DNA of 64,000 bases from Mytilus galloprovincialis. Taxonomy: Eukaryota > Mollusca > Bivalvia > Mytilida > Mytilidae. The position numbers and the translations under genes were made by a program. The notes under the pieces are model-generated. The model was given only the letters and a program-made list of their open reading frames with translations, searched no databases and was not told where the DNA came from. Location of the stretch: the NCBI RefSeq assembly GCF_965363235.1, contig NC_134846.1, positions 63,973,121-64,037,120 on the forward strand, in the 5' to 3' direction. Shown in pieces: positions 10,201-47,618 of the stretch. Positions within the stretch are counted from its first letter, which is position 1. Each line of letters begins with the position of its first letter.

Positions 10201-13200
10201 GGACACAACATTCAAGCTGGATTCAGCTCTAAATTTGGATTGTGATTAAATAGTTGACACAGCATAGGTTTCTGACACAGAATGAATGTGGTCTAATGAA
10301 CTTAAAATACTTTTTTTTCCTTTGAGCAATTCACTATGCTGTTGAATATTAATCCTCTCAAAAAAATGTTTGAAGAAATTTTCTTTTTATTTATGAAATC
10401 TGAAATGAGAAAAATTTAACCCCCCCCCCCATTTTTTTTTTCACATCTCCCTTTCCCTTTTTCCAAAACTGATCTCAATTCAAATTTCTAATGGAGTTTG
10501 CAACAATAACTACTCATTTAAATACATCATAAAATATTAAAATGTAACAAAAGGTGCTTGTTATCACTGAATGGTAAAGATTGTTTTAATTTATCAGTTG
10601 GTAGTAAAAGTGATTCTAATATGACGTGCTTCTTTCGCTTTGTAAACAACACCGTGATAAAATTCTCCATATATCTATACTTAGCGCAGACTCCGAGATA
10701 TACATAATAATGGCTGTTACAATATACTTCCCACGTAAATCCACATGTATTGGAACCTATTTGTAAACCATTTGCCGATTTTATTTTTTTTTTAAATTGC
10801 AGTTAAAAAAGACAAAATAACTTATTCTAATTCGGATGCAAAATAAAAAGAAGTAATGCACAAGAGCTCGGAGAAATCAACAAAATAAAAATAAAATAAA
10901 ATTCCGCAAAAGTCTTTTAATGTTTTTGACGCATTTAAGTCATTTCAAAACATGACGTCATACAAATGAAAACGCTACAGTTGAACGTTTTCTGAAAAGT
11001 GAACCATCGAAATTCGTATAATATTGTATTAAAATTGATTTGTAAGGTAGGTTTTGTTTTATTTTCTATTCTATTGCATTTTTCGCATATTTACTGATTT
11101 CAGCAAGTCAACATGGCGGCTCCTTAGTTACAAAATGTCAACTTTGGATTTGACGGTAGCTTACGAGAAAAACATGTAAATTAAAAATGGCAAATGTTGG
11201 GTTTGTGAATTTAAAGAATTAAACAGATTTTTTTTTCTAGCGGTTATTCACTAAACAATCCATGCAAGCTACAGATTTTATGAATATTTGAGCTTTACCG
11301 AACCGGGAGTAAAAAAAGAACAGCCACACACACAGCATACATACCATCGCTTCAGTTTTTTAATGACCGTATTTGTCCTATTAGAATCGAAATAATTCAT
11401 GGAAGCCATAGATTGTTGGAAATTTACACATGGCCTGGGCCGTGATATTCGTTAATTTTATCCCTCGCTAACACTCAGGATAAAATTCGAATATCACGGC
11501 CCAGGCCATGTGTAAATTTCCAACAATCTATGGCTTCCATGAATTATTTCTTAAATATACATTGTATATTGTATAAAACAATGATTTAAGTTGATTCAAC
11601 TACTATTCTGGACAAAGAAAGATAACTCCAATCAATTGAAAATTTCTTGCTATTGCACAATATTGTGCAATTAGATATTTCTTGCTATTGTGCAATACTG
11701 TGCAATTGAAAATATTTGCTATTGCACAATACTGTGCAATTGAAAATTTCTTGCTATTGCACAATACTGTGCAATTGAAGATTTCTTGCTATTGCTGAAT
11801 ACTGTTCAATTGAAAATTTCTTGCTATTGCACAATACTTAATATAACAAGAAGTAATTGTAACAGGATGCTGTTACGAAGTCTCCCAAACAAAGCTCCCA
11901 TAACTCGCCATTCATGTGGTCCCATGTTCATTTGATTTGATTTTTTGTCCCATACAAGAATATATATGGCTTACGAGTAGGGATCTCCACCATTTACAAG
12001 TATGCAAACAGGAGGGGGTGGTGGTGACCACAAGGGAATTTACCTACATTTCATTTCATTTGTTTTATTGTCCCCTACAAGAATGTATATGGTTTAAGGG
12101 TGGGGATCTGGACCGTTTACAAGATAATAGCACATTCTCCAATTGAACAGGGTGGGGCAACCCCCAGGAACTTCCCTTTAATTTCCTTTGGTTACCTTTA
12201 TTGTCCCATACAAGAATATATATGGTTTAGGGATGGGGATCTGGACCGTTTACAAGTTTTCAAACAAGAGGGGGTGGGGTGACCCCCTAGGGACTTCCCT
12301 CTTATTTCATTTCATTTGTTTTATTGTCCCCTACAAGAATATATATGGTTTAGGGGTGGGGATGTTGACCGTTTACAAGTTTTCAAACAAGGGGGGGTGG
12401 GGTGACCCCCTACAGAATTTCCTTTTATTTCATTACATTTGTTTTATTGTCCCCTACAAGAAAATATATGGTTTAGGGGTGGGGATGTTGACCGTTTACA
12501 AGTTTTCAAATAAGAGGGGGTGGGGTGACCCCCTAGCAACTTCCCTTTAATTTCATTTCATTTGTTTTATTGTCCCCTACAAGAATATATATGGTTTAGG
12601 GGTGGGGATGTTGACCGTTTACAAGTTTTCAAACAAGAGGGGGTGGGGATGACCCCCTAGGGACTTCCCTTTAATTTCATTTCATTTGTTTTATTGTCCC
12701 CTACAAGAATATATGTAGTTTAGGGGTGGGGATCTGGACCGTTTACAAGATAATAGCACATTCTCAAATTGACTGGGGTGGGGATGGCCCCCTGGGACCT
12801 CCCATTAATTTCATTTGATTTGTTTTATCGTCCCATTCAACAATATATATGGTTTAGGGGTGGGGATCTGGACCGTTTACAAAATATAAGCATATTCTCA
12901 AATTGAAGGGGGTGGGGATGAACTCCCAGGGACTCCCCCTATATTTCATGTGATTTGTTTTATTGTCCTATAATCAATTCTGAAGACTGCATGTATCTAT
13001 CACTTACAGTTTTCAAGTTATATTCATTTGAAAATTTTATAAAATAAAATCCCATAGGGTTCTATAGTAAACCCCTTCCTCCTTTCTACCCCCCAAAATA
13101 CCCCTTAATAGACCCCAATGCACAAACGAAAAATTGATGGTTCACCTAGACATATTAGTCTACCATTTTATGAAATTCTAAGTCAATCTGACAAGCGGTT

Positions 13201-16200
13201 TTGGAGAAACGCTGCGGACAAGTTCATTTTTTAAAGTGGCGGAAGAAAAAGAAGAAAAAGAAGAAGAACTAGAATTGCCATTGCAAGCAATAGCGGATGT
13301 CACCCTTCCCCTCATTGCCACTAAGCGGCAGCCATTTCAAAACAACTTAACAGTGAATGCAGATCTATGAATTGCGATATATCTTTCTGTAAATTTTCAA
13401 TACAATAACAGCATTTGCCAAAAGTTTCACATTTCTGCTGTTTCCATGGCAACGGCAGCCATTTTGAAAATTCCAAAGTCAAAAGTCTCATCCATACATG
13501 CCAGTTGACAATAATATTAAGTTTGATTAAGGCGAAGTGTACGTAATTAAACTACACAATGGATTTTTTTTAAATTTTACATGTAGATTCTGCTTGTAAA
13601 AATAAATCGGAAAATAAAATAAAAAAAGGGGGTAACCGTTTTCGTTTTTGAGATACGAGCTGTTGAAGTTAACAGCATCATACAGCAAAATTACAAAGGA
13701 TATATAGAGAAAATCGTGAAATTCGGCAGGAATTGCTACATTTCCAAGATTTTCTATTATATTAGACAATCGATTTTTTTTTAAATCTATGAAACGATTC
13801 TAAAATGTCTGAGGAATCGATTGGTGCAAAGAAAGTCCTTAGCAACCGTGCTACTTTTCAAGCTATACCCTGTTAAAGTTGAATCTTGAGTGTAAAAAAA
13901 ACCAAAAAACAACGACAACGTTATTGACGTCGCCGCAACAGTTACGACGCTTCATATAGTTCTACTTGTATGAAATATATACCGTTTTGTTGGAGTTCGT
14001 GTTGCTCGGTCTTTAGTTCTTTATGTTACGTTTTGTGTACTATTGTATTGTATTTGTTTATTATATTCGGGTGCATGCGGAGATCGCCAAGCTAGAAAAC
14101 GGTTGACATTTTCTTCATTATGAACTAGAACTATTTTCGACCTTGGTGCCTTATTTTTTGTTAAAATCTAAACACTGCGACGTGTTTTCAAAATCTTTGT
14201 TCCCATAAAACTTCATTTCATCAAGGTCTCTTCTCAGAATATCAGCCATCTGTCTGGCACAGGATAACAAATCAATATTTAAGTAAATTTAAGTTGTGTG
14301 GTAATTCTTAGTACATTTGGGTAAATTAATCTTATCTTTGTGCCGAATAAGCATTTCTATAATTCAACACATCCCTGAGCCACGACATTATATATTTCAT
14401 GCATTGCATGCGCTTCTTTTTATCACAATCCAGACCGGCTATTAATCGTTGTATAACTTTACACGTCTGAAGACGAATATTTGCGTGAAACATTTTTGTA
14501 TGATTTTTATTTCTGGAAATCAATCTGAAATCTACAACAGTCTATTTCCGAAAGTCGGGCTGGACCTTTACTTTTATGTGCATTCGGGATTTACACAAAT
14601 TGTAACCCGAATAATTCAGTATATTATTCAGCTGATGTACGAATGCTACATTTCTCGTGTGGGAGAAAATCGGGCATGGAAAGGGCTTGAATTATTCGAG
14701 TTACTCAAATTGAAACTCGGGAATATATTTCTAGCTGTTCGGAATTCGCGGAAACAAATGATTGTTTTTCGGCATTACGGTATTGAATCAATAGAGATAC
14801 CAATTATTTCTTTTTAACAAATTCGAATACCAGTCAGTTTTAGGACTTCAGTTTGAAATAGGGGCGGTAATCCATTCATGTTATCCAATCAATTGGAAAA
14901 AAGGTGGGGGTCAACATTGATAGTCAAAAAGCCTTGAAATATTCGATAAAAAACGTTGAATGTAAATTATATGAACTCCAAAGTCTCATATTATAGGACT
15001 AGTAAACCACAGGCTTCTCAGTTCTTGTATGATCATGAACTAGGTGAAAACCTAGAGCTTACCGAGTGCGAGATCTTCATGGATTATTATCGAGGTCGTT
15101 AAACACCCCTTGCAGTAAACTTTGGTTAATTTAAAAAAAAAATCGAAATGTAATAGTCTGAACACATTTCACCTCTCATTCCACTAAATATTAAATTGCA
15201 GTTACAAGTATCACAAAACTTCCTTGACCTCTTTTCTTTAACCATAGTAGAGGGAGGATGGAAGGAGGGATCCAGATCTCGAAATCCCGGGCTAAAAACA
15301 CGAAATCCGGCGAGGTCCCGAATTAAAAAAATTTAAATCCCGGCTACCCGAAATTCGGAAATAGAATTCCCGGATCCCGAAAGGATCAATCCCGAAATCC
15401 CGAACTTAAAAACACCCGATCCCGGAGTTCCGATAAAGGTCCTACCCTCCTCCTCATAATCTTGAGACTTGATACTTCAAAATTACATTCTCTAATTTTG
15501 AATGATGCACACAGGCACAATAAAAGAAAACAAATTTCGCTATATATCTCTTAGAAATTGGAATTTGTGAAAGAAGTAATGACATGTTATACTTTATTTT
15601 ATATGTGTACTTCCAATTTCAATATGGTTCTAAATTTAGATTTAGTTTTCCCATAAATTGCGGACGGAATAGAAGACACCTGTTTATTTTCTGCACATGT
15701 AGAAAAAGTTGAAAACTGGGAGTTAAATGACATAATTTTTACTTATTTTAAGATAAATGTTAGAGACAACTTTTAAGTTACTGAGTAATTTTTGGGGCAT
15801 AATTTGTTTACTTTTTGTTTGTTTTCCGTCTTTGTTCTTCCGACTGGTAAGTTTTGCACTAGTGGTCAAATTATTCTCTTGATATCGTCTGATTTCTTAT
15901 ATGAATATAAATCATGTCCTTAAATTTTCAATTGCACAAAATACGAACATTTCAACGTCTTTTTAATTAAACAATTAAATTCACACGTCTTTCATTTATT
16001 ATTTGTAACCTATTATAAAACTTTACGTTAAGTACTGTGTTTTTCGTTCAAGACTACGGCTTTTTAAAACGATATTGTTGGGTCAATTCAGGTTTCATTT
16101 TAATTAATTTGATATCAATAGAAGAAAAATTGTTACATGTTTATTTATTTATAATTTTGTTGTGGCGTTTTCTTTTCTGTTGATATCATAAACACGAAAT

Positions 16201-19200
16201 GCCTTCTCCTACGCGTCTAAAACAAAACAAAAACAACAGTATTTTTAAGTCAGGCTGCACACAGAACAACGTACAGAATGCTGTGATTTCTAATTGGAGT
16301 TATTTAGATAATTTCTATGAGGTTTAAGACAGCACAGGCGTGCTTGTTGGATTCATTATAGACCGCAGAAAGTAGTTTCTCTTTCGTGTGTCCTTTCTTG
16401 GAGTAAGGGAGATAACTTGCGTAACTAACGACGAACGTTTTTAATCCCGTATTCCGCTAGAGGCGTGCAATTACGTACACTTCGCCTTAAGTTTGGAGCA
16501 TTTTGAAAATATTTAACATTTCTGCAGTTTCCATGGCAACCGCCGCCATTTTGGAAATTCCAACTCTAAAAGTCTTATGCAGACTTGACAGTCAACAATC
16601 ATACTAAGTTTCAATATTTTTTGAGCATTTTGAAATTTTAGAAATTTTTGACATTTTGGCTGGTTTCTATGGTAACACAGACCATTCCAAATTTCTAATG
16701 GCAGATTCCACATTGGTACATGGGAGGGAACATACCATAAGAGTTTCAATGGATTTGACCTACCATTTTAAGGAAGTAAATGCCCCTTTTTAAGGTTTTT
16801 AAAGCGTTTTTACCATTTTTGCCTTGTTTCCATGGTAACACAAGACATTTTCGAAATTCCAACGCCAAATTCCACATCTACCAAAGTTGCTCATCGTTAT
16901 GCTTAAGTTTCAAAAAATTTGGAGCAATTTGATATTTTGGAAATTTTTGGTGTAGTTTCCATGACAACATAGTAGTTCCAATGATTGCCAAAATCATCCA
17001 AAACCAGTATATGCCCAACACCTACATTGTATCAAAATATAATGATTCTGAGTTTAAGCATCTCCAAATTATTCACCAAAACCCAAAAATTTAATTTTTC
17101 ACATTTGTTCCGTTTCCATGGTAACGGCAGCCATTTTTAATGGTCTTATGACCTACTGCAACCCGGAATTTTGTGTTCCTCATTATAGTCAACTATCATT
17201 AAGATTGGTTCCATTGTCTCCAAGAAAACTGCCGGACAAAATCATTGGAAGAATAATAATAACTAGATTTGCCATTGCAAGCAATAGCGGATGTCACCCT
17301 TCCCCCCATTGCCACTAAGCGGCAGCCATTTCAAAAACTTTTAACAATGAATGCACATATTTGCATGGCTATACATTTTTCTGTAAATTTTCAGTACATT
17401 TAGATCATTTTTAAAAACATGACGTTTTTGCTGTTTCCATGGCAACGGCAGCCATTTTGAAATTTTCCAAGTCAAAAGTCTCATCTATACATGCCAGTTT
17501 ACAATAATATTAAGTTTCATTAAGTTTGGAGCATTTTGAAAATATTTGACATTTTTTCAGTTTCCATGGCAACGGTAGCCATTTTGGAAATTCCAACTTC
17601 AAAAGTCTCATGCAGACTTGACAGTCAACAATCATAGTAAGTTTCATTACTTTTTGAGCATTTTGAAATTTTTGAAATTTTTGACATTTTGGCTGGTTTC
17701 TATGGTTACACAGACCATTCCAAATTTCTAATGGTAGATACCACATTGGTACATGGGAGGGAACATACCATCAGAGTTTCAATGGATTTGACCTACCCTT
17801 TTAAGAAAGTAAATGCCACTTTTAGGTGTTTTTTGGACCATTTTGCCTTTTTTGTATTGTTTCCATGGTAACAGCAGACATTTTCAAAATTCCAACGCCA
17901 AATTCCACATCTTACAATGTTGCTCATCGTTTCTGTGAAGTTTTATTAAATTTGGAGCATTTCCATATTTTTGAAATTTTTGGTGTAGTATCCATGGCAA
18001 CATAGCAGTTCCAATGATTGCCAAAATCATCCCAAAGCAGTATATAGTGGGCACCTACATTGTATTAAAATCTAAAGATTTTAAGCCTAAGCATTCTCAA
18101 ACAATTCCCTTAACTCTAAAATTATATTTTTTCACCATTTTTTCGTTTCCATGGTGATGGCAGCCATTTTTTTAGTTCCAATACCGGAAAGAAACAGGCA
18201 AGTCAGGGTTCCTTGTTATAGTGCACTATCATTCAGATTGGTTCCGTTGGCTCTGAGAAAACTGCCGGACAAAATTAGGTGGAAGAAAAATAATAATAAT
18301 AATAATAATAATAATAACTAGAATTGCCATTGCAAGCAATAGCAGATGTCACCCTTCCCCCCATTGCCACTAAGCGGCAGCCATTTCAAAATTGTTTAAC
18401 AGTGAATGCACATTTTGCATGGCAATACATCTTTCTATAAATTTTCAGTACAATGAGAGTATTTTAAAAAATTTCACATTTCTGCTGTTTCCATGGCAAC
18501 GGCAGCCATTTTGAAAATTTCAAAGTCAAAAGCCTCATCATTACTTGTCAGTTAACAATACTATCTAGTTTCATTAAGTTTAAAGCATTTTGAAAATTTT
18601 TGACTTTTTTGCAGTTTCCATGGCAACGGTGGCCATTTTGGAAATTCCAAAGTCAAAAGTCTCATCCAGACTTGGCAGTCAACAATAATATTAAGTTTCA
18701 TCAATTTTGGAGCATTTTGAAATTTTTGAAATATTTGATCCTGTATCCATGGTAACAGAGTAGTTCCAATGATTGTCATAATCATTCAAAACCTGTATAT
18801 AGTGGACAACTATATTGTATGAAAATTTGATGATTTTAAGTTCAAGCATACCAAAGTTATTCACCAAACCCTCAAGTTTTTGGAGCATTTTGACCTTTTA
18901 GCATTGTTTCCATGGAAACGGCAGACATTTTGGAAATTCCAACGCCAAATTCCACATCTACCAAAGTTGCTCATCGTTATGCAAGAATTTCAAAAAATTT
19001 GGAGCATTTTCATTTTTTTGAAATTTTTGGTGTAGTATCCATGGCAACATAGCAGTTCCAATGATTGCCAAAATCATCCCAAAGCAGTATATAGTGGGCA
19101 CCTACATTGTATTAAAATCTAAAGATTTTAAGGTTAAGCATTCTCAAACAATTCACCTAACTCCAAAATTATATTTTTTCACCATTTTTCCGTTTCCATG

Positions 19201-22200
19201 GTGATGGCAGCCATTTTTTTAGTGCCAATATTGAAAAGCAACAGGAAAGTCAGGGTTCCTTGTTATAGTGCACCATCATTCAGATTGATTCCTTTGGCTC
19301 TTAGAAAGCGAGCGGACAAAATTAGGTGGAAGAAAAATAATAATAACTAGATTTGCCATTGCAAGCAAAAGCGGATGGCACCCTTTCCCCATTGCCAGGC
19401 CAGCGGCAGCCATTCAGAAAATTTTTGCTGTTTCCATGGCAATGGCTGCCATTTTGAAAATTCGAAACTCAAAAGTTAAGTCTACATAAGCTAGGCAAAA
19501 TTTGTTATAAGTTTCATTAAATTTAAAGCATTTTAAAGTTTTTCATAATTTTGCTGTTCCCATGGTAACGGCGGCCATTTTGAATATTCCAAAGTCAAAC
19601 CCCCGCTGCCATTTTTGCCCTCCATAATCATATACCATTTAATGTCTCTAGAATAAATTTAACATTGATGTTCTGGAATGTTCTGTGAAAATTCAAAGTT
19701 TTGACCTTTTTGCATTGTTTCCATGGTAACAACAGATATTTTGGAAATTCCAACGCCAAATTCCACATCTTCCAATGTTGCTCATCGTTACTGTGAAGTT
19801 TCATGAAGTTTGGAGCATTTTGATATTTTTGAAATATTTGGTGTAGTTTCCATGGCAACATAGTAGTTCCAATGAGTGCCAAAATCACCCAACACCTGTA
19901 TATGGCCGGCACCTACATTGTATTAAAATATAATGTTTCTGAGTTCAAGCATATCCAAACAGTTCACCAAAACAAAACACTGGATTTTTTCACATTTGTT
20001 TCGTTTCCATGGTAACGGCGGACATCTTGAAAGTGCCAACCCCAAAAAGCAAATCTTCACATGGTGGTTAACATTATGGTATAGTTCCATCTTATTTGGT
20101 CCATTTATATTAGAGTTCCAGACTGGACAAAAAAGTGTGGAAGAAAAATAATAAAGATAAAAAAAACAAAAAGAAACGTAGAATAACAATATGTCACCCA
20201 AACTCCGTTTAGGGTGCCATAATAATAGGGAAAAAGAAACAGAGGAAAAGCAATATGTCACCTGACTTTGTCGATCGGGTGACATAATAATAGTAAAGAA
20301 ACAGAGGAAAAGCAATATGTCACCCGACATTGTCGATCGGGTGAGATTATAATAAAAATAATAAGAACTGAGCAAAAACAATAAGTCTCCAAACTTTGTT
20401 TGGGAGACTTAACTAGAATTGCCATTGCAAGCAATAGCGGATGTCACCCTTCCCCCTATTGCCACTAAGCGGCAGCCATTTCAAACTTGTTTAACAGTAA
20501 ATGCACAAAAATGCATGGGTATTCATGTTTTTGTAAATTTTCAGTATATTCAGGGCATTTTAAAGTATTTCACATTTATACCATTTCCATGGCAACGGCA
20601 GCCATTTTGAAAATTTCAAAGTCAAAAGTCTCATCTCTACTTGTCAGTTACCAATAATATCAAATTTCATTAAGTTTAAACCATTTTTAGAATTTTTGAC
20701 ATTTTTGCAGTTTCCATGGCAACCGTAGCCATTTTGGAAATTCCAACTTCAAAAGTCATATGTAGACTTGATAGTCAACAATCATATCAAGTTTCATCTA
20801 TTTTAAAGCATTTTGAAATTTTTGCTCCTGTATCCATGGTAACATAGTAGTTCCAATGATTGTCAAAATCATTCAAAACCTGTATATAGTGGACAACTAT
20901 ATTGCATTAAAATTTGATGATTTTAAGTTCAAGCATACCAAAGTTAATCACCAAACCCGGAAGTTTTTGGAGAATTTTGACCTTTTTGCATTGTTTCCAT
21001 GGAAACGGCAGACATTTTGGAAATTCCAACGCCAAATTCCGCCTCTACCAAAGTTGCTCATCGTTATGCTAAAGTTTCCAAAAAATTGGATCATTTTCAT
21101 ATTTTTGAAATTTTTGGTGTAGTTTCCATGGCAACATAGTAGTTCCAATGATTGCCAAAATCATCCCAAAGCAGTATAAAGTCGGCACCTACATTGTATT
21201 AAAATCTAAAGATTTTAAGCTTAAGCATTCTCAAACAATTCATCTAACTCCAAAATTATATTTTTTCACCATTTTTCCGTTTCCATGGTGATGGCAGCCA
21301 TTTTTTAGTTCCAAAGTTGCACTGCAACTGGAAAGTCAGGGTTCCTTGTTATAGTGCACCATCATTCAGATTGGTTCCTTTGGCTTTGAGAAAACTGCCG
21401 GACAAAATTAGGTGGAAGAAAAATAATAATAACTAGAATTGCCATTGCAAGCAATAGCGGATGTCACCCTTCCCCTATTGCCACTAACCGGCAGCCATTT
21501 CAAAATGGTTTAACAGTGAATGCACATATGTTAATGACAATACATCTTTCTGTAAATTTTCAGTACATTCAGAGCATTTTAAAAAAAATCACATTTCTGC
21601 CGTTTCCATGGCAACGGCAGCCATTTTGAAAATTTCAAAGTCAAAAGTCTCATCTGTACTTGCCAGTTAACAATAATGTCAAGTTTCATTAAGTTCAAAG
21701 CATTTTGAGAAATTTTGACTTTTTTGCAGTTTCCATGGCAACGGTGGCCATTTTGGAAATTTCAAAGTCAAAAGTCTCATCCAGACTTGCCAGTCAACTA
21801 TCATATTAAGTTTCATCAACTTTGGAGCATTTTGAAATTTTTGAGATATTTGATCCTGTATCCATGGTAACAGAGTAGTTCCAATGATTGTCAAAATCAA
21901 ACAAAACCTGTATATAGTGGATAACTATATTGTGTAAAAATTTTATGATTTTAAGTTCAACCATACCAAAGTTATTGACCAAACCCGGAAGTTTTTGGAG
22001 CATTTTGACCTTTTTGCATTGTTTCCATGGAAACGGCAGACATTTTGGAAATTCCAATGCCAAATTCCATATCTACCAAAGTTGCTCATCGTTATGGTAA
22101 AGTTTCAAAAAATTTGGAGCATTTTCATATTTTTGAAATTTTTGGTGTAGTTTCCATGGCAACATAGTAGTTCCAATGATTGCCAAAATCATCCAAAACT

Positions 22201-25200
22201 AGTATATGGGTGGCACCTTCATTGTATTAAAATATGATGATTCTGAGTTTAAGCATCTCCAAATTATTCCAAAAAAACAAAAAGTGGAATTTTTCACAAT
22301 TGTTCCGTTTCCATGGAAACGGCAGCCATTTTTTATGGTCTTAGACCCTACTGCAACCCGCAATTTTGTGTTCCCTATTATACTTAACTATCAATAAGAT
22401 TGGTTCCATTGGCTCCGAGAAAAGTGGCGGACAAAATAGTTGGAAGAATAATAATAATAACAAAGAAACAGAGGAAAAGCAATATGTCACCCGACATTGT
22501 CGATCGGGTGACATAATAATACGGAAAAAGAAACAGAGGAAAAGCAATATGTCACCCGACATTGTCGATCGGGTGACATAATAATTTTGGATCCTGATTT
22601 GAACCAACTTGAAAACTGGGCCCATAATCAAAAATCTAAGTACATGTTTAGATTCAGCATATCAAAAAAGCTCAAGAATTCAATTTTTGTTAAAATCAAA
22701 CTTAGTTTAACTTTGGACCCTTTGGACTTTAATGTAGACCAATTTAAACGGGACTAAAAATTAAAAATCTACATACACAGTAAGATTAGGCATATCAAAG
22801 AACCCCAATTATTCAATTTTTGATGAAATCAAACAAGTTTAATTTGGACCCGATCTGGACCAACTTGAAAACTGGGCCAATAATCAAAAATCTAAGTACA
22901 TTTTTAGATTCAGCATATCAAAGAACCCCAAGGATTCAATTTTTGTCAAAATCAAACTAAGTTTAATTTTGGACCCTTTGGACCTTAATGTAGACCAATT
23001 TGAAAATGGGACCAAAAATTAAGAATCTACATACACAGTTAGATTCGGCATATCAAAGAACCCCAATTATTCAATTTTTGATGAAATCAAACTAAGTTCA
23101 ATTTTGGACCCTTTGGGCCCCTTATTCCTAAACTGTTAGGACCAAAATCGAACCCAACCTTCCTTTAGTGGTCATAAACCTTGTGTTTAAATTTCATAGA
23201 TTTCTATTAACTTAAACAAAAGTTATGGTGCGAAAACCAAGAATAATGCTTACTTGGGCCCCTTTTTGGCCCCTAATTCCTAACTGTTCATACCTCAACT
23301 CCCAAAATCAATACCAACCTTCCTTTTGTGGTCATAAACCTTGTGTTTAAATTTCATTGATTTCTATTTACTTAAACTAAAGTTATTGTGCGAAAACCAA
23401 GAAAATGCTTATTTGGGCCCTTTTTGGCCCCTAATTCCTAAAATGTTGGGATCAAAACTCCCAAAATCAATCCCAACCTTGTGTTAAAATTTCATAGATT
23501 TCTATTCACTTTTACTAAAGTTAGAGTGCGAAAACTAAAAGTATTCGGACGACGACGACGACGACAACGACGCAGACGACGACGCCAACGTGATAGCAAT
23601 ATACGACGAAAAATTAAAATTTTTGCGGTCGTATAAAAAGGCCAAACACCTTTCAACGTATCACTGTTTTTAAACTGTTGACCATATTTGCAGTCATTCT
23701 GTTCAACATATTGAAAATTCAAAGAATGGGCAAGCAAGAAGTAGGTATCTGACAAACTAAATAGTGCTTACATGTTACAACTTATCACTGTCCCGCTGCT
23801 GACTAAATATGACAGTATAGTTTCTGTGATTGCAAAAATAAATAACATTTGTTGGACCAACAGATGAGCACAGTGATTGCATATCCCACACATATTACGA
23901 GAATGTATAATAAGTTGAAATACTAAGTAATTCCTACCTGATTATAAGAAGGTGGAGACATCACTGGTTCTGTAGTTGGTGTATCTAATTTTTTCAGGTC
24001 TGTTTGTGACTGGCCAGTTCTATAACGTTCAAATCTTTCATACCGTAAAAATACATTATTTATATCATCATTCACTCTCAGAAGTTCATCTGCAATAGAA
24101 AGGAAACGTCTTAGTACTAAAAAAATGTTTTTCTCTAAGTCTTTACATTAAATCCATGGGAAGTGTATTGATGAATATATTTTAGTCTGACAAACCATGG
24201 TTCATTTATTAGTGAACTAGCTGTTAGTAACTGTGAGAAGTATAGATGTGTACTTTGAGTGTTTTTTTGTCCCTTTGATAATTGTTTTTGTAGTCAGTAC
24301 TGATCTGATGAGTCAAGTCCTTTCTAACAGATTTTTAGTTTGTTCGTTAGTTTTGCTGTGTCATCACAGTCCAAGGTTTATCTTGCAGTCACAGGTTAGG
24401 TTAACAGAAAAATATTATCAAGGAAAATAAGATTGTTAACAGAAACTTACTAGTAACTTCTTCATTTGCTATTTTATCTAATAAATCTACTAATCTTTGC
24501 TGCATTTGTCTGTTTGTACGATTTAATTCCTGGAAGGAAACAATAAAATATACTATTTTGTTAGTCATATACTGATAATAATGATATCATTCATGGTCAT
24601 ATTAAGATAGTGATGTTCTGATGTCTAAAATGAGCTATACTAGCATTATTTCCCATAAAAAAATTACTATGACTTCGATATTGATGTCTACAATGCCAAT
24701 GACATAGCATTCAATCAGTTCTGGTATCATCTAGACTCTCTGAAGTCAGATTGAGATATTTATATGCTGAACTTCATTGATAAAAATAATTTTGTAACAA
24801 CTTTGGTGGTGAATATTTTCTTCTTACAAATACTGAATGTTAAAAAAAAATCATAAAATATAATTGTAGTAAACACTTTTTAAAATTATTTTAATGATTC
24901 TATTCAGAATATTTCTTCAAAATGGATGTATGGACAGACTAAGATGCAGATGCACAAACCAGAAAGCATTATTGATTTCTTCTTTTGACAGGGCATGACA
25001 ATAAAATGCACATGTCTACTGAAATCAAATCCCCCTATACTGAATGGATAAAGTCTTTATACAAGGTCTATGTGTAACATGTAGTTACCTGTAGTAATTC
25101 TAAATCTGATGGATCTACACTTGATGGATCGAGTTCTGTTAACATGTCTCCCATTACTTTAATATTTGCGTTGACGACAGTGAGTTCACTTTTTAACTTT

Positions 25201-28200
25201 GCCATTTGTTCAGTTGTTGGATTAATGGGACCTGCTGGCACGACTGGTATTTGTGGAGGTTGGTCCTAAGAGTTAAAAAGCATGATGTAAGTTTTGATGT
25301 AAATATTATCAGCTATAAAATCCTCATACAACTTAGTTTCTTCTAAAACTTCTCATAATGACTGTGTTTTTTTATTTCTGTTTAGTTTTTTCTTTAAATA
25401 TATTTGCTCCTGTACTTTGTATGATTTGACATAAACATTTCATGGAAAGAAAGGATAAAAATAATTAGACAACTGAGCTTAAATGACATAAATGTATTTT
25501 GAAATTAAAACATTACGAGTTCATAAAATTCTTTGAAGTTAATATTACTTCTAAAAATAAAATTTGTGGATTAAGCTCAATATGACCAGAACATATAATT
25601 CAATCAACAATTTTGAATTCCTGAATTTCTTCAATAATAACCCTTTCTATGTTTGATGAAGTTTACAAGTTCACAAGGTTAAAATACATCATTGACTCCT
25701 CATGCATAAAGCTACAAATGTAAATTTCCCTCACATATAACATCATAATAATCGAATGAAAAAAAAAAAGAGAAAAAGTTTTAACCTGCACATGCTTTTT
25801 TCACTCACTAATAACATCCATAAAAATTTGTTGTTGTACAAAAACTTGAAATGTATGAAGCTGTACATGCAACTTTCACTAACAAAAAACAATATTCAAT
25901 AAATCGTATCACAAATCTGCGGGACATTTTGGCGTTCTTTTGACTTTATAAATATTCTCTCAATTACATATTTATCATCAGCTTTAAACCTCAGTATATA
26001 CTATCCTATAAATGAATGTCATAATGATGGATTGTTATGTAACATTATTCATCAATAAAACAAGTTCCCTTTATGGGTGCATATCTAATGTGATCAAGTG
26101 TTTACAGAAATATCAGACAGATGTAGAAAGTCAAACTGTCAAAAGTGAGCAGCACATATATACTCGGCCAAAATTTAAAATTGCATTGTCAAAATTTAGA
26201 CTGAGAAGACAGCTAATTGTAGTCCCTAGCTAATTTTGAAAACTCTGGCTGAGTCATTTAATGCTACCAACCCTACATTTTTGGTTTTGTTTTTTTAAAA
26301 TACAATAAAAATTCCATAAATACTACCTACTTAGAAATGTAATTAATCAATAGAATTCAACTTTCCCTATTTTCAATTATTTCATGCATTATTTCAACAC
26401 TTAACACTTCCATTGTATACATTAAAATTTACCATTTTAACATGACCTGTATAGTAGACCTATGTTAGAGATTGACATCAAACAAGAAAAATAGATATGA
26501 ACTACCTCCAATCTTTGTTTTGGGGATAAAAGACACTAACAGAGTTTACTAATAAGATACATGCATCAACAACAATTCAAACAAACCAAACCTGAATTTC
26601 TTCTCTTACAACATATTTCATCTGCATGAAAAAATTATCATTTGTATGCTTAATGTCTCATTAAGATGCTATCAAGTGAATAATAGATGTGGAGACACAT
26701 TTACAACATCTTCTAAACAGTATTTAGAAAATTTAACTAATGTCGATTGTCACATCAACAACTATGACAAAATACAAATATTCGCTGCACTGTTATTTAA
26801 AAACAAATCATTTGTACAGCTTATTTGAAGGTTTTTTTTTATGTTTAAGATATTTATCCCTTTGATTAGATTATATGATAACACATCAAAATAAAGAAAA
26901 GTTATAGATGGATTTCAAACATTCATTTTGGTGTAAACAGTTATGTCCCCTGATTTTGTATCAATAATTCATAATTTTAAAATTTTTACCAGCAAATTGA
27001 CCTGTAAATAATTGTTACTGTTTCCTTATAATTGAGAATGGAAATGGGGAATATGTCAAAGAGACAACAATCTGATCAATACGCAGATAACAGTTTCTTC
27101 TCCAAGATTATATCCCTATGTTTCAAGTCAGCAAATCCATGTAAAATTAAATTAACCAAACGTTTGAGAAAAAATTATCATGAAAATTTGACAGTTGATT
27201 AAGTAATCCATAAGTCAATCTACAACATTCATTCACACTTTACAAATACGAATGAAAAATATGGATATGGTATAAGTAGATATGACTACAAGTTTGTGGG
27301 AAACATTTAATTGAAGGGAGATAACTCACTGCTCGTAAACTTGGTTGTCTTTGTTGTCTGATAACAGGTTCAGGTTCTGGTTGACTCTGAAAAATATTAT
27401 AAAATGTCAAGGTAGATCAAGATTGTTTTTCTAATCTTTCTTTTTTAGCTGTTGTTTTGTATATGTACAGAAAAATAACATTTCTCAACTATCCTATATA
27501 ATCACTTTCCCCCAGAATCAATCACTCATCTGATAAAACTGCCCTTCAAAGATGAAGAAAGTATCAACTTTAGAGGTCACAAAATGATACTCCCTGGATT
27601 CATATAAAATTTGAGTGTCTCCTTTTGTCCAAATATCTGACTGGACCATTTGGCCTTCATGAAAATCTCAAAAGTGTGTAACATTTTTTTCTTTCAATTT
27701 TCTTTGAAATACATTTGTTTGTTTTATTACCTAGAGCAGTTGTCCTACTTGACAGCAAGTTCATTATCAATGTTACAAAATTATGAATTGTTTTATGAAA
27801 ATATTTCATAAAAGAATGGTGACTAAATAATTTTTAAATTTTCTTTCTATACCTAAACATACCCTTTTTGGTGTGTGAATTGGTGCCATATGATCTAGAT
27901 CAGTCATTGGGAATTCTATTCCTTTTCCCTTCAAATCATTATAACATTTTTCTACTTCCTTCAAGTCTGGTTGTCCTTTAAAAGCATCTGACCAGGACTA
28001 TAACACAATAAAAAAGAAACTATTTACTGTTATCAATTTTTTTTCAAGAATTCTTATATTCTATATATTAAGATGAAATGTAAGAGAAGATTTAATATCA
28101 GTAAAATGAAATTAAAGTATTCATAAACAAAATAAAGGACATTTGAGATGCATACATGGCATACATTGACTAACACAAAACTGAACCAAAGTTGCTCGAA

Positions 28201-31200
28201 CATTAAACATAGGAGGGGTAAAACATGTTACAAATGAAATAAGGTAGCAGGACTTCGGGTTTCAACTTAAAACCTTTATTTCTATCTTTTTAAATATACC
28301 ATCAAATGATATTTTGATATGAATTCTAAAAGACAAAATAATTTTTTTTTACTAAATTATATAGATGCAATTCAATGAATGTCCTGTCCAGGCTAGGCAC
28401 AAGTCCAGGATTTGATTTGTCATGCTTGACCAGACAATATAACAGATTTGGAAATCCTGTTTTGGAATTAAATCCCTTCACTCATTATGACAGGATGATT
28501 TGCACATGTAGATGTTGACTCAATCATTCTAACCCCTCCAAAAACCATATAGTAAGCTGCAGGTATATAGCATGTATTAATTTACTGTAGATTATATAAC
28601 TTTTTACCTGTATAGAACTTAACACTTTTTCTTGAAGAACTGTTGGTGGGTCATATTTAGGACCAATTATTTTTACTAAGTCACCCATAAAATCTTTTGT
28701 GGCTACTTGCTGATGGAATTTTTTCCCACAATTTTTCACACATGTCTCCAAACACTAAATATACAAAGAAATAATATACAATTGGTAAAAATATAACAAA
28801 TAATAACTTTTGCATAACAAGTAAAAATAATTTAAAATGTGCCAAAACCATGAAAACATAAATATTTAGGTCTTGTAATACCATCAATTAATTTTTCATG
28901 ATTGGGACTTGAAATATTGTTGCCATTGGTGGTTGACAATGATCAGAGAAAATTTTAAAGTAGTACTTTGCTAGAATGATATGGATACTCCTAGAAAATT
29001 TAACAATGATACTAGGCTATATTTTGTAAGCTAGAAGCGTGTTTTGTCTACAAAAGATTCATCTGTGAAGATCAAACCAAAATAGGTAAAAAGTTTTTGA
29101 AAAATTTAACCAAGGTTATCTATTCCTCACCAAAGAGAGTCCTTAGCATTCAAATCACTTTAAAGTTTTGTAAACATTTAATTCATACAAGAGTGCACAC
29201 GCTGAAATGTCTCGCCTTCTATACTAATCATTGATATTATGTTGATAATCCTAAGTATAAAGCTAAGCTTTATTACAACTGTCACTTAAACTTAACATTA
29301 ACCAAGATAACTAAACAAAGACCAATGAACCTTGAAAATGAGGTCAAGGTCAGATGAACTATGCCAGGCAGACATGTACAGCTAACAATGCTTCTATACA
29401 ACATATATAGTTGACCCATTATTTATAATTTAAGAAAAATAGACCAAACACAAAAACTTAACACTGTGCAATGAACCGTGAAAATGAGGTCACGGTCAAA
29501 TAAAACCTGCGCAACTGACATAAAGATCATAAAATATTTCCATACACCATATATAGTTGAGCTATGGCATATAGTATTAGATAAAAAGACCAAAACTCAA
29601 AAACTTAAATTTGACCACTGAACCTAAAAATGAGGTCAAGGTCACATGACATCTGCCCGCTAGACATGTACAACTTACAATCATTCCATACAACAAATAT
29701 AGTAGACCTATTGCATATAGTATGAGAAAAACAGACCAAAACACAAAAATTTAACTATAACCACTGAACCATGAAAATGAGGTCAATGTCAGATGACACC
29801 TACCAGTTGGACATGTACACCTTACAGTCCTTCCATACACCGAATATACTAGCCCTATTGGTTATAGTATCTGAGATATGGACTTGACCACCAAAACTTA
29901 ACCTTGTTCACTGATCCATGAAATGAGGTCGAGGTCAAGTGAAAACTGTCTGACAGACATGAGGACCTTGCAAGGTACGCACATATCAAATATAGTTATC
30001 CTTTTACTTATAATAAGAGAGAATTCAACATTACAAAAAATTTGAACTTTTTTTCAAGTGGTCACTGAACCATAAAAAATGAGGTCACATTGAACATGTG
30101 ACTGACTGAAACTTCGTAACATGAAGCATCTATATACAAAGTATGAAGCATCCAGGTCTTCCACCTTCTAAAATATAAAGCTTTTAAGAAGTGAGCTAAC
30201 GCCGCTGCTGGATCACTATCGCTCTGTCGAGCTTTCTGCAACAAAAGTTGCAGGCTCGTCAAAAATTACCATATCAATGATATACCAATGTCACTACTGT
30301 TTTAAAAATCCTTTGTTGGGTCTGACTGGTCGCAATATTGACTGAGATCATGATCAGTTATTACAAACTTTTCCTTTGTTTTTAGTGTGTGTTTGCTATA
30401 CATGTACTGATTGTGCGTCACTGATGGATACACCATATCCTTTCTTTTTAGTGTGTGTTTGCTATGCATATACTGATTGTGTGTCACTGATGGATTCACC
30501 ATATCCTTTGTTTTTAGTGTGTGTTTGCTATACATGTACTGATTGTGTGTCACTGATGGATACACCATATCCTTTGTTTTTATATTAAGATATTTTCATG
30601 ATGAAGTTTGAATATTTTTAGATATTTCCAAGTTTTTTTTTACTTTTATAGGAAATTTCATGTTGTTTTGGTAATGCATCAAAAGGCTTGTACATTTTAT
30701 GTCAATACAAATTCATACAAGAGTGCACACGCTGAAATGTCTCGACTTCTATACTAATCATTGATATTATGTTGATAGTCCTAAGTACAAATGAAGTATA
30801 AAGCTAAGCTTTATTACAACTGTCACATAAACTTAACATTAACCAAGATAACTAAACAAAGACCAATGAACTTTGAAAATGAGGTCAAGGTCAGATGAAC
30901 TATGCCAGGCAGACATGTACAGCTAACAATGCTTCTATACAACATATATAGTTGACCCATTACTTATAATTTAAGAAAAATAGACCAAACACAACAACTT
31001 AACACTGTGCAATAAACCGTGAAAATGAGGTCACGGTCAAATAAAACCTGTGCAACTGACATAAAGATCATAAAATATTTCCATACACCAAATATAGTTG
31101 AGCTATGGCATATAGTATTAGATAAAAAGACCAAAACTCAAAAACCTAACTTTGACCACTGAACCATGAAAATGAGGTCAAGGTTACATGACATCTTCCC

Positions 31201-35817: not shown

Positions 35818-37560
35818 TTTTTTTGTAAATATTGCGTGACGTCATTTGTTTGATCTATTTATAGAATAGTCTTGTGACTGGCATTAAGTTTGTATCAATA
35901 TTTAAAATAATAATTTATTTTTTCATATTACAAAATGTTTGTTTTTCCCTCATATTCAAAAATCATATGAAAATACATATTTTAATGGAACGGAAGTACT
36001 TTCTTAACCGGAAATAACAGTCGACATAGAAACAGGACGCCATTTCCCACAAAATTTGAAGCTTTCAAATCGACAAATGTGAGAAATTATTGAAGTTACA
36101 GTTGTTTCTACTCAAAAGGTTAATGTCATCTTCAATAAAACACAATTAATGATTTGGTTTTAATAATTAACAACTGCCACACGCATTTACTAACATTTAA
36201 TTTTAAAACAAATAAACAAGCACTCAACACAACCAAATCAATTTATATTTACAATTTCTATCTCGTACAACCACAATTTGCACTTAACTGTAGTTTTCTG
36301 TTTTAAAATCTATAGAGAGAAGAAATCTTTTTATCATCTATCCATCTATTTTTGTCGGAGATAACTATGATGTCCAAGGGCTGTTTTTGTTTGGTCAAAC
36401 AAGCTCGTTCCGATATCTAAATGTGGCTATTTGATGTACAAAACGTATGCGCTGCTTCATTGCTTCTAGAGCTAGTGTTTTATATAAAGCAATTTATCAT
36501 AGCATGACACCATGCCTTTTTTTCAGTCGCCATACCCTTTTTCTCTGAAAAATTTGATGCCATGTATGCCCTTTAACATTATATGGATCAAGATAGGGTG
36601 ACAGTATACACCTTATCACTTATCCTGGCTGACCCGGCTGCTTCAACTTTTGACACATACAACAATAACTTTTCCATTGTGGTGTCAGAAATTTTGTTTT
36701 ATGACGTCAATATTTTACGGGAATCTGTGCGATATCCAGTAATGGCAGACAAATAGCGATAAGGTGTATTGTGTTAATGTCAATGGATGCAAATTTTGGC
36801 CAAAACAGTATGCATGAGTTAATTCAGATTAATAATCAATGTACATGTACATGTAGTTTGTCATAAATCGTAATATTTGAATCAGTTGGTGTTTTTTTTA
36901 TACAATATTACCATTTTGATAACAAAACAAGAACTTAGACCAATGTAATTTGTTTTAAATTTTCATAGCTTTAAGACTTAATAACACAAATAATATGAGG
37001 CAGGCATTACCTGTAAATGGGGACAAAGTCTGTATGAATTATTTTTTTGTAACTTAAATATTTGTTAAAAAAAAGAAACGGAAATACTGTAACGTTTTTG
37101 ATTTTGGTTCTGTTGTTACTGATTTTAGTTGTGACATTATTTAAGTTATGACGTCATATGCAATGTAAACAAAGAAACGCTATCATCAGGTAACGTTTTT
37201 TCATATCAAGGAATTATTAAAAATGAAATTGGTATTGCGTTCCTTCCTATTTTATACTAGACTGATAAATATATATTTTACCCAAAGTTTCATACAAATG
37301 AGACCAGAAAAAAAAATACATTGTAGATTTATGCGCAGATATGGGAATTCAAAACATGACATAAAAAAAAAAAAAAAACGATTTTGAGTTCATTAGTATA
37401 ATGAAAATTTCTGGAAAATTTTCCCGATTGTTTTTTTTTTTTTCATTTTTTTTATTGATTTTTCTACTGTTATTGGGGACTTCATCCCTATATAATTAAT
37501 TGAAAATAAGGCAATCATCCTCTTTAAGTTTCTTTCCATTTATATTAAAATATGTGGTCT
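35818..37560. promoter_or_regulatory. Head-to-head promoter region of the TOM1-like gene and DRC3
   Basis: The two start codons diverge across about 1.78 kb. On the TOM1-like side lie CCGGAAAT (ETS-like, about 36008) and GACGCCATTTCC (YY1-like, about 36036), and the start codon itself sits in AAAATGGCTGCC. On the DRC3 side are TGACGTCA (37149-37156), a forkhead-like TGTAAACAAAG (37164-37174) and a possible 5' UTR donor CAG/GTAACG at 37189/37190. DRC3 exon 2 opens with a clear acceptor (TTTCAG) 23 nt before the ATG, so an upstream non-coding exon must exist. No TATA box was identified. Confidence 0.55.
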
Positions 37561-37594
37561 TTATAATTTCAGATCCATCAATAAAGCAGCAAAA

Positions 37595-40500
37595 ATGAGT
37601 GCTGTAAATTCTATGTCTCGTATGTACGATAACTTAGAACCAACAGTTATCGATGAAGATTTACTCAGATCTGCTGTTGAAGAACAAGGTCCCAAAGAAG
37701 AAGCTGGTAAAATAGCCAAAGCTGAAGGGATAGACTTTGGTGATGTTACATCCTTGAGATTAGACTTCAAAAGTAAGTAAACAAATTATTAAGCTGTGTT
37801 TGATCAAGATGATACATGTAAATAGTCCTATCTGAATTATAAGAGAATATATGAAAATGTGGGATATTAGATTTTCATATACATGTATATTTTTATTTGT
37901 AAAAAAATATACATAGAATAAATTCCAATGTTCCTTTGCTACATTGTATCTTGTGGGTGTACATTTTAATATTGTTATCTCTTGTTGGTTGTTTTGGTAT
38001 TTTATGGTAGGAATTTCAGAGTATTTTTTCCATTTAGAAAAAAATATTTTTTAAAGTTGTACATTTCTGACAAAAACAGAACTTTTCTGATCAAAATTCA
38101 TTTGTTGAAGTGAATTCTTTCACTTTTCTCAATAATTGTATAATTATTTAGAATAGTAATTATCTTTGAGAGATTTACCCTTTTATTTTGTTGCATATAC
38201 ATTGTACAGGCGTTTAATATATGCATTTTGTATATGTCTAATCTGTTGTTTTGCTTTTGTTCTTTCATATTATGTGACAAGAAATAGTTATCTAATGATG
38301 TCCTTTTTTTATGTTTCCAGATGTTTTAACAATTGATAACTTATGGGAATTTACAGCATTAACAAAATTACAGTTGGACAACAATATCATAGAAAAAATA
38401 GAAGGACTAGATTCACTTGTAAATCTTATTTGGTTGGGTAAGTGTATAAATTTGTAAATTAAATGAGGATGTTGTCAATACAGAATTATCATGATTAGAA
38501 AAATACAAAGTAACATATGTGGGTACAGAGAACTGAGACCGGAACCAGAAGCATTGATAAACCAGAAATTATAATGGCCTGTTGCAGATTGCACAATTGA
38601 ATTGTCATGTGTCTGTACCATATGAAAAAATACAGCATTTGAGAGATCAGCTCATTAACACAAACTCTTTAAAGAACAAAGTAAGTAATTTACCTAAAAA
38701 TTATTTGATCAAAAGAGACATTTAAGTCAATCATTATCATGCATCATTCTTCCCAATCTAAAAACAAAATATGACTTAATTTCAATAGAAATAAAACCAT
38801 TGTTCATATATATTTATAATCTTGTTATATATTAGGGGAGATAACTATTAACATTAAATGTTTTTTCAGATTTGTCCTTTAACAACATAGAAGTAATAGA
38901 AGGATTGGGTCATCTGACTAAATTAGAAGACCTTACTTTATACAGTAACAGAATATCAAAGATTGAAAATATGGATAATTTAGTAAATTTACAGGTGTTC
39001 TCTATTGGAAACAATATCCTGAAAGATTTAGAAAATGTAAGTATCAGCATTGTATTTGGTTTAAGAAATTTTGTAGCTTTTTTCCTTTAAATAATCTTTC
39101 AATTTTGAGTAAATAGTTATATGACTTTGATTGTAAGTTAAAATGAAATTAACCTTTATTCCTCGGTACATGGATGAAAAGTGTCTATAGCTACAGTGTC
39201 TTAGTTTGACAGCCAAATAACCTTTTTAGCTCACCTTTCCAAAAGAAAATGTGAGCTTTTGCCATCACTTGGCGTCCGTCGTCGTCCGTCCGTCGTCGTC
39301 CGTCCATCGTCGTCATCGTAAACTATTTCAAAGATCTTTTCAGAAGTTTTCCTCTGAAACTACTGAACCAATTCAAACCAAACTTCATCTGATTGATTCC
39401 TAGGGTATCTAGAATAAAGTTTGTGTTTTAATTCCCATTTCATCAAAAAACATGGCAGCCATGTCTAAAAATAGAACATAGGGGTAAAATGCAGTTTTTA
39501 GCTTATAACTCAAAAACCAAAGCATTTAGAGCAAATCTGACGGGGTAAAATTGTTTATCAGGTCAAGATCTATCTGCCCTGAAATTTTCAGATGAATTGG
39601 ACAACCCGTTGTTAGGTTATTGGTTATTATCATGAATATTATTATAGATAGAGATAAACTGTAAACAGCAAAAATGTTCAGCAAAGTAAGACTTACAAAT
39701 AAGTCAACATGACCGAAATGGTCAGTTGACCCCTTTAGGAGTTATGGCCCTTTATAGTCAATTTTTAACCATTTTCCGTAAATCTTAGTGATCTTTTACA
39801 AAAATCTTCTCCTTTGAAACTACTGGGCCAAATTGAACCAAACTTGGCAACAATCATCATTGGGGTATCTAGTTTAAAAATTGTGTCTGGTGACCCGGCC
39901 AACCAACCAAGATGGCCACCATGGCTAAAATCAGTTTTTGGCTTATAACTCAAAAACCGAAGCATTTACAGCAAATCTGACACGAGGTTAAATGGTTTAT
40001 CAGGTCAAGATCTATCTGCCCTGAAATTTTCAGATGAATCAGACAACCGATTGTTAGGTTGCTGCCTCTGAATTGGTTATTTTAAGGAAATTTTGCTGTT
40101 TTTGGTTATTATCATGAATATTATTATAGATAGAGATAAACTGTAAACAGCAAAAATGTTCAGCAAAGTAAGATTTACAAATAAGTCAACATGACCGAAA
40201 TGGTCAGGTGACCCCTTTAGGAGTTATGGCCCTTTATAGTCAATTTTTAACCATTTTCCGTAAATCTTAGTTATCTTTTACAAAAATCTGCTTCTCTGAA
40301 ACTACTGGGCCAAATTTAACCAAACATGGCCAAAATCATTATTAGGGTATCTAGTTAAAAAATTGTGTCCGGTGACCTGGCTTACCAACCAAGAAGGCCG
40401 CCATGGCTAAAAATAGAACATAGGGGTAAAATGCAGTTTTTAGCTTATAACTCACAAACCAAAGCATTTAGAGCAAATCTGACATGGATTAAATTGTTTA

Positions 40501-46533: not shown

Positions 46534-47618
46534 TTGTCGAGCCTGCAACTTTTGTTGCAGAAAGCTCGACAAAGGGATAGTGGTCTGGCGTCGGCGGCGG
46601 CGTTAGCTAACTTTTTAAAAGCTTTATATTTTAGAGGGTGGAAGACCTGGATGCTTCATACTTTGTATATAGATGCCTCATGTTACGAAGTTTCCGTCAG
46701 TCACATGTCAAATGTCCTTGACCTCATTTTCATGGTTCAGTGACCACTTGAAAAAAAAGTTCAGATTTTTTGTAATGTTGAAATCTCTCTTATTTTAAGT
46801 AATAGGATAATTATTTTTGGTATGTGCGTACCATGCAAGGTCCTCATGCCCATCAGACAGTTTTCACTTGACCTCGACCTCATTTCATGGATCAGTGAAC
46901 AAGGTTAAGTTTTGGTGGTCAAGTCCATATCTCAGATACTATAAGCAATAGGTCTAGTATATTCGGTGTATGGAAGGACTGTAAGGTGTACATGTCCAAC
47001 TGGCAGGTGTCATCTGACCTTGACCTCATTTTCATGGTTCAGTGGTTATAGTTAAGTTTTTGTGTTTTGGTCTGTTTTTCTCATACTTTATGCAATAGAT
47101 CTACTATATTTGTTGTATGGAATGATTGTAAGATGTACATGTCTAGCGGGCAGATGTCATCTGACCTTGACCTCATTTTCATGGTTGAGTGGTCAAAGTT
47201 AAGTTTTTGAGTTTTGGTCTTTTTATCTAATACTATATGCCATAGGTCAACTATATTTGGTGTATGGAAATGTTTTATGATCTATATGTCAGTCCCGCAG
47301 GTTTTATTTGACCTCGACCTCATTTTCACGGTTCATTGCTCAGTGTTAAGTTTTTGTGTTTTGGTCTATTTTTCTTAAACTATAAGTAATAGGTCAACTA
47401 TATTTGTTGTATGGAAGCATTGTTAGCTGTACATGTCTGCCTGGCATGGTTCATCTGACCGTGACCTCATTTTCATGGTTCATTGGTCTTTGTTTAGTTA
47501 TCTTGGTTAATGCCAAGTTTATGTGACAGTTTTTAATAAAGCTTTATACTTAGGACTATCAACATAATATCAATAATTAGTAAAGAAGGCGAGACATTTC
47601 AGCGTGTGCACTCTTGTT
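46534..47618 (-). mobile_element. Family A element, copy 4 (inverted), just after DRC3
   Basis: Complete copy in reverse orientation. It begins with the hairpin (TTGTCGAGCCTGCAACTTTT, GTTGCAGAAAGCTCGACA) and ends GAAATGTCTCG complement and CTCTTGTT. It starts about 50 bp past the DRC3 poly(A) signal. The 69-codon frame at 46534-46743 and similar frames in other copies are repeat translations. Confidence 0.8.

Follow-up and report, generated by a model that had tools for sequence, protein, structure and literature searches.

Constrained RFX-type sites in the central repeats of a probable HINE-type transposable element of Mytilus galloprovincialis

The window analysed here is a 64-kb stretch of the genome of Mytilus galloprovincialis (contig NC_134846.1, positions 63,973,121 to 64,037,120), and it contains an array of units of about 1 kb, each of which carries several matches to the X-box. 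Judged from its sequence, this array is a head-to-tail cluster of putative non-autonomous rolling-circle elements of the HINE (non-autonomous Helentron) type, lying on the minus strand. RFX proteins are ciliary and spermatogenic regulators that bind X-boxes. The X-boxes of the element are steadier than the surrounding DNA, which suggests that the element depends on RFX. We consider it rather probable that this HINE family draws on RFX, joined at about half of the boxes by a YY1-like partner, for its own regulation or transposition. What is new is the presence of constrained RFX-type sites in the satellite-like repeats of a HINE; the HINE plan itself has already been described.

The X-box consensus is GTHNYYATRRNAAC or GTTNCCATGGNAAC, with positions 4 and 11 free, and was also the form used in a sequence-only reading of this stretch. 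The strict pattern GTHNYYATRRNAAC has 54 matches on the two strands of the window, against a mean of 0.91 in shuffled sequence, and none of 100 shuffles reached 54. The matches fall at 30 distinct positions, 29 of them on the plus strand, and span 13440-22320. The sequence-only reading had claimed about 29 X-boxes in units of about 1.03 kb, each with several subrepeats, and both the count and the layout are borne out. The units begin with the head CTAGAATTGCC or CTAGATTTGCC, at 13269, 17263, 18318, 19347, 20413 and 21433, and the five uninterrupted units are 1,016-1,066 bp long (hairpin modules being included in the longest). By hand count and with near misses included there are 35 boxes in the array: five of the units have six each, at offsets of approximately +170, +297, +426, +589, +718 and +875, and the unit at 19347 has five. 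The array extends to about 22585 as 5'-end hairpin modules, beyond the limit of 22440 given earlier. A coding role for the array was considered and is not favoured: its stop-to-stop frames are short, and even the one of 161 amino acids, the longest to touch it, runs into the hairpin modules. An Rfam scan of the window gave no match, nor did four open reading frames (ORFs) of the window compared with NCBIfam.

The form of the motif points to a protein site. Of 31 window boxes only 4 have complementary bases at positions 4 and 11, whereas the remaining 12 positions show dyad symmetry, a combination that fits the dyad of an RFX-type protein and not a cruciform. A need for a cruciform or perfect palindrome is not supported, on the same count. 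A stem ATGGC...GCCAT across the box and the YY-like site, seen by eye, was dismissed, since neither box type 4 nor type 5 is able to fold in this way. At position 11 all four bases occur (C 246, T 241, A 96 and G 27 in 610 contexts). We infer that RFX proteins bind the array X-boxes.

Genome searches were run over the 1.385-Gb assembly, in which the window lies on the contig labelled C9 and the loci retrieved are labelled L001 onwards. Extraction gave 143 units or fragments, and the alignment was made from those 47 that were distinct, full-length and of the main type. The 84 X-box columns diverge by 1.87%, the 48 YY-like columns by 1.29% and the remaining columns by 5.48%. When the motif mask was shifted circularly, none of the 1,015 placements gave a divergence as low as that observed for the X-boxes, and the motif holds 23 distinct variants, against a shift mean of 60 and minimum of 27. 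Seven units came from loci fetched by the exact 27-mer of box 1; these were removed and the background was matched by trinucleotide context. In the resulting set of 40 units the motif has 0.35 of the distinct variants, 0.39 of the private variants and 0.40 of the divergence of the background, and the values without box 1 are similar (0.37, 0.41 and 0.45, respectively). The probability of such depletion is at most 0.0002 (5,000 draws). What variation there is within the boxes is concentrated: at position 11 it affects 13 of the 47 units in box 4 and 8 in box 6, at position 3 it affects 11 in box 5 and 6 in box 3, and a few other positions vary as well. The positions that hold much of this residual variation are those that RFX is known to tolerate.

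A separate scan was anchored on the 40-bp flanks only, ignoring the box itself, and covered loci L001-L046 and the window. It yielded 610 distinct contexts, of which 482 fit GTHNYYATRRNAAC. Where the flanks differ by approximately 33-43%, the 12 core positions differ by 8-19%. The sequence-only reading had proposed that the motif core stays intact while the spacers diverge, and the comparison across units and genomic copies agrees with this: the motif changes more slowly than the spacers, and not at an equal rate. The X-box constraint survives the controls applied.

Several observations weigh against this interpretation. The alignment left out 96 mosaic or partial units. Taken singly, boxes 1-6 rank 50, 51, 310, 203, 154 and 326 of 1,003 14-bp windows, so that neither box 3 nor box 6 would stand out on its own. 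In the window the boxes at 17696, 18145, 19192 and 21279 have lost the consensus. Where flank identity is at least 0.90, the motif mismatches a fixed consensus no less often than the flanks do, in part since the departures of box types 3b and 6b are fixed. Other blocks are conserved too, among them the first 50 bp (0.2-1.2%, in units that were found by their heads) and the string after box 5. There is also some pseudo-replication, since the near-duplicate regions L024 and L045 share flanks. These two loci have identical left flanks and lie at C3:15.13 and C3:15.26 Mb in opposite orientation; either the region was duplicated locally with inversion, or the assembly holds a haplotype artefact here.

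The YY1-like partner is less regular. The string GGCAGCCATTTT occurs in 10 copies in the array, and GCCATTTT follows within 14 nt of 17 of the 35 boxes. The earlier statement that this motif often follows the X-box is therefore right for about half of the boxes; box types 3 and 5 carry a different conserved string in its place. In the 40-unit control the YY-like sites (core AAAATGGC) have 0.50 of the distinct variants and 0.25 of the divergence of the background. Their private variants are not depleted (0.81, p 0.24). Because of this, and because only about half of the boxes are followed by the site, the YY1 part of the reading is less secure than the RFX part.

The assignment to the HINE type follows from the agreement of the array ends and internal order with the published plan of subterminal and inverted repeats, microsatellite, central repeats and 3' palindrome, as described in the available parts of PMC7492417 and PMC4067079. 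Read on the minus strand, the 5' end has a subterminal repeat TTATGTCACCC and its complement GGGTGACAT, which form a hairpin of 13 pairs. This is followed by a microsatellite (ATT)n, a variable tail and the central repeats of 120-163 bp. At the 3' end there is GGGTGACAT, which is the 3' subterminal repeat, then the palindrome GCTATTGCTTGCAATGGC (with one mismatch pair), then AATTCTAG. The 3' subterminal repeat matches the 5' one inverted, with GGGTGACAT in the unit head and ATGTCACCC in the left flank; the two have 9 bp in common, with 28 nt separating this core from the 3' end, and the palindrome lies 8 nt before the CTAG terminus. Among 132 distinct head contexts the unit start is fixed and the preceding sequence variable: another unit may end there with its (AAT)n tail, or there may be a hairpin module of about 60 bp, of which several kinds occur, or unrelated A-rich sequence (L004, L015, L018, L024). 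At their right ends the arrays carry the hairpin GTCACCCGACATTGTCGATCGGGTGAC, next to it ATAAT, and then unrelated sequence (L018, L042, L044). HINEs insert in T-rich sequence, within TT; on the minus strand the ends here adjoin T-rich flanks in L004, L015, L018, L024, L042 and L044, as judged from the flanks. The hairpin modules at the 5' end (60-65 bp) are in tandem, two or three per end (window 20181-20345 and 22449-22585; L042 6840-7022; L044 7650-7830), as if the 5' terminus were duplicated in itself.

The element has a 3' CTAG followed by T, as expected for a canonical Helitron, but its 5' end is TTATGTCACCC and not TC. The genome has 138 matches to Helitron_like_N; no autonomous partner with the ends of the array element was found in 12 of their neighbourhoods or in one 4-kb stretch upstream of a Rep gene, regions that span parts of elements only.

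According to the published descriptions, several HINEs are close relatives in plan. Cg_HINE of the Pacific oyster (PMC7492417) similarly has a 5' subterminal repeat, a complementary inverted repeat and a microsatellite, then central satellite-like repeats, a 3' subterminal repeat and a palindrome. Its subterminal core is 11-12 bp (11-15 bp across the HINEs described in PMC7492417 and PMC4067079), in contrast to the 9 bp found here, where the units also form head-to-tail arrays; and its description, in which the term 'transcription factor' does not occur, includes no transcription-factor motif, whereas the array element has constrained X-boxes. Pearl and MgE of bivalves (PMC7492417), the latter from Mytilus, are likewise HINE-like with central repeats of about 160 bp, a comparison made by description only. 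The DINE-1/Helentron HINEs of flies and mites (PMC4067079) resemble the array element in that about 2 nt separate the subterminal repeat from the 5' end and about 8 nt the palindrome from the 3' end; they also have a T-rich target, to which the T-rich flanks seen here may correspond. They differ in having the subterminal repeat about 38-60 nt from the 3' end, and the CTAG terminus of the array element is instead that of canonical Helitrons.

The element is widely dispersed. The 27-mer GTTTCCATGGCAACGGCAGCCATTTTG has 782 exact copies in the genome (369 forward and 413 reverse) and its reversed control none; the unit head has 1,998 (913 and 1,085), again with none for the control. Comparison of unit 6 with the genome gave 2,058 first-look candidates, and 164 matches from the 40 that were scored. 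Many heads lie in head-to-tail arrays, for example over about 40 kb at C1:11.83-11.87 Mb. The strict pattern GTTNCCATGGNAAC occurs at 14,510 sites, against 27 for the same pattern read backwards, and the genome encodes 7 matches to the RFX DNA-binding domain. The first 61 positions listed (C1 0-9.47 Mb, counted by hand) were taken as a sample of this pool; they are clumped, and old copies may be missed. Of these, 49 lie inside the array-element family: 34 are among family heads, in arrays that include L001-L003, and the other 27 lie in 19 neighbourhoods that were compared with a motif-masked library of the arrays, which placed 8 (15 sites) in the family and 11 (12 sites) outside it. The 12 sites outside (L065-L068, L070, L072, L074, L076-L078, L080) are mutually dissimilar except for L076/L077. 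Scaled up, such out-of-family sites would number about 1,700 genome-wide, against the 27 of the reversed control, and are either genuine RFX sites or other repeats.

On the basis of these observations, we propose that the central satellite-like repeats of about 130 bp, each with an X-box and about half with a YY1-like site after it, would allow RFX (with YY1) to supply transcription, open chromatin, or an input to replication or transposition. Given in germ-line cells with active RFX, whose DNA passes to the offspring, most simply in the flagellated-sperm lineage, such an input would let element lineages that keep their X-boxes spread better. Among the roles suggested by the sequence-only reading (an RFX sink, an enhancer cluster, or a repeat that exploits RFX/YY1 binding) the last fits best, both in the fit of the X-boxes and in their constraint, its YY1 part being the weaker. 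An RFX-titrating sink would be numerically feasible, given the strict sites in the genome. It is also conceivable, though we put this forward only tentatively, that RFX (with YY1) drives expression or transposition of the element in the flagellated-sperm lineage, and that the element, as the main carrier of perfect X-boxes (about four-fifths in the sample), is numerous enough to titrate RFX and to seed RFX-responsive sites near genes.

The boxes could instead be cis-signals of the transposition machinery, that is, sites for a Rep/helicase or a replication fork that resemble an X-box, RFX being irrelevant. The element ends are similarly constrained, and the 3' terminus holds TTGCCAT, an X-box-like half-site (10/14 matches). 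However, a site that is degenerate at positions 4 and 11, without pressure to pair them, and an exact dyad elsewhere matches the RFX consensus; and in the relevant parts of PMC7492417 and PMC4067079 the central repeats are variable cargo rather than signals for transposition. We consider this explanation unlikely. Less plausible is that these are ordinary HINE satellite repeats without function, whose low motif divergence reflects gene conversion or the sampling of recent copies. Tandem repeats do homogenise, and 31 of the 47 units are more than 95% identical to the query unit, but homogenising would reduce spacer divergence too, the shift and context-matched tests compare sites within the same units, and old, diverged contexts show the same contrast; we judge it quite improbable.

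Host domestication, in which many copies would be RFX-responsive enhancers under host selection, appears very improbable. It would account for the depletion of private variants in the motif (14 in 84 motif sites against 307 in 834 others, and 8 against 210 in the 31 recent units), and it has a precedent in the DINE-1-like element ISX of flies (PMC4384637, in the part available), discussed below. The ratio of private to shared variants is nevertheless that of the background (Fisher p 0.20), and variants scored as private may sit on older branches: with only 47 units sampled from about 2,000 heads, private variants do not separate selection on the element from selection on the host. Moreover, long arrays in varied contexts are poorly explained as single enhancers, and the start of DRC3, the neighbouring gene, has no X-box. 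This last point bears equally on the suggestion, scarcely credible in our view, that the array is a local ciliary enhancer or RFX sink serving DRC3. The end of the array is about 15 kb from the first DRC3 exon, and the exons on the plus strand from 37.5 kb confirm DRC3 as the neighbour. The array units are, however, found across the genome, and the array sits within another gene. No site with up to two mismatches to GTTNCCATGGNAAC was found near the DRC3 start (about 37.6 kb), so that a dedicated X-box there was rejected; such sites occur only twice in the window outside the array, at 47886 and 60904. The special link to DRC3 drawn in the earlier reading is not supported, and if the element uses RFX for its own ends, then its position beside DRC3 would be a coincidence.

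The nearest precedent for a DINE-1-like element that spreads sites of a regulator is, in the portions of the papers available, ISX of Drosophila miranda (PMC4384637; its DINE-1-like status, PMC4067079), a transposon that similarly disperses sites for a host regulator. It differs in having 77 dosage-compensation sites under host selection, against the thousands found here, many per element and for a different regulator. The inverted terminal repeat of adeno-associated virus (AAV), which has rolling-type replication, is reported to be bound by RFX1/RFX3 (PMC5760533); this too is selfish DNA with RFX, at a virus terminus in AAV and, as proposed, in internal repeats in the array. For mouse, a major regulatory role in spermiogenesis is ascribed to RFX2 (PMC4498915, PMC4745085). 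A literature search whose scope left out subscription papers and preprints found, among the matches listed, nothing linking RFX or the X-box to transposable elements, satellite repeats, YY1 or Mytilus. The available passages of work on RFX in testis or spermatogenesis with transposon motif enrichment make no transposon link, and for Helitron with RFX or X-box there was no mention of Helitrons among the matches listed.

Satellite-like repeats inside HINEs are usually taken as passive cargo. A constrained factor site gives them a testable role and a reason for their retention. If the proposal is right, the family would offer a large natural example in which a transposon disseminates sites for the ciliary and spermatogenic regulator RFX, useful for asking how regulatory networks rewire and whether a load of binding sites titrates a factor.

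The coordinates of the features are listed in Table 1.

Table 1. Features of the array and its surroundings, in window coordinates.
Feature	Position	Strand	Remarks
Outer element, probable 3' end	11846..11905	-	GTTTGGGAGACTT and palindrome GTAACAGCATCCTGTTAC
123-bp tandem repeats and module	11927..13268	.	also precede X-box arrays L014, L044, L046
Unit 1, left piece	13269..13530	-	3' (right-flank) terminus CTAG, palindrome and subterminal repeat ATGTCACCC (13297); X-box 13440
Foreign insert in unit 1, 2,956 bp	13531..16486	.	terminal inverted repeats GGCGAAGTGTACGTAATT; TTAA target duplication
Unit 1, right piece	16487..17262	-	X-boxes 16527, 16663, 16826, 16955, 17112
Unit 2	17263..18317	-	boxes 17433, 17560, 17696, 17859, 17988, 18145 (18145 off-consensus)
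Unit 3	18318..19346	-	boxes 18487, 18614, 18743, 18906, 19035, 19192 (19192 off-consensus)
Unit 4, mosaic	19347..20180	-	five boxes 19430-20003
Unit 4, 5' left-flank modules	20181..20345	-	hairpins built on GTCACCC...GGGTGAC/GGGTGCCAT
Outer HINE-like element, 5' left flank	20346..20412	-	hairpin GTCTCCAAAC...GTTTGGGAGAC (20398-20408)
Unit 5	20413..21432	-	six boxes 20583-21279 (20583, 21279 off-consensus)
Unit 6	21433..22448	-	six boxes 21602-22307; reference in genome comparison
Two 65-bp left-flank modules	22449..22585	-	microsatellite and hairpin GTCACCCGACATTGTCGATCGGGTGAC; array 5' terminus
TOM1 exons right of array	23923..28751	-	domain matches: GAT 23923-24144, VHS 28524-28751
First DRC3 exons	37499..39087	+	DRC3 matches

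The placing of the array in an intron of a TOM1-like gene, as in the sequence-only reading, stands on its right side, where exons encode VHS and GAT. The exons on its left (9085-9288 and 1204-1392) are probably TOM1 by their resemblance to the TOM1 C-terminus, and for this reason the intron placement is less firm on that side.

Units 1-4 appear to be enclosed by a second HINE-like element (window 11846-20412), as its matching ends suggest. An 11-bp repeat GTCTCCCAAAC at 11880 has its match in GTTTGGGAGAC at 20398, with the palindrome GTAACAGCATCCTGTTAC beside the copy at 11880 and the hairpin around that at 20398; the arrays of L014 and L046 also have this hairpin as their right end.

Unit 1 is split by an insert that was overlooked in the earlier reading. 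It is putatively piggyBac-like; a transposase was not found, and its ORF of 123 amino acids has no Pfam match. The L042 array (2500-2957) holds a copy of the insert sequence at the corresponding place, about 12 bp off. Joint movement of the two arrays with the insert already in place was considered and rejected: the TTAA sites differ, and so the two are independent insertions.

Two other sets of repeats occur in the window. A tandem repeat family of about 147 bp is present at five places (1752-2366, 29309-29944, 30861-31421, 46869-47488 and 49938-50483) and has no strict X-box. At 53668-54438 an (ACGA)n microsatellite comes after tandem repeats of 189 bp, in a general HINE-like layout.

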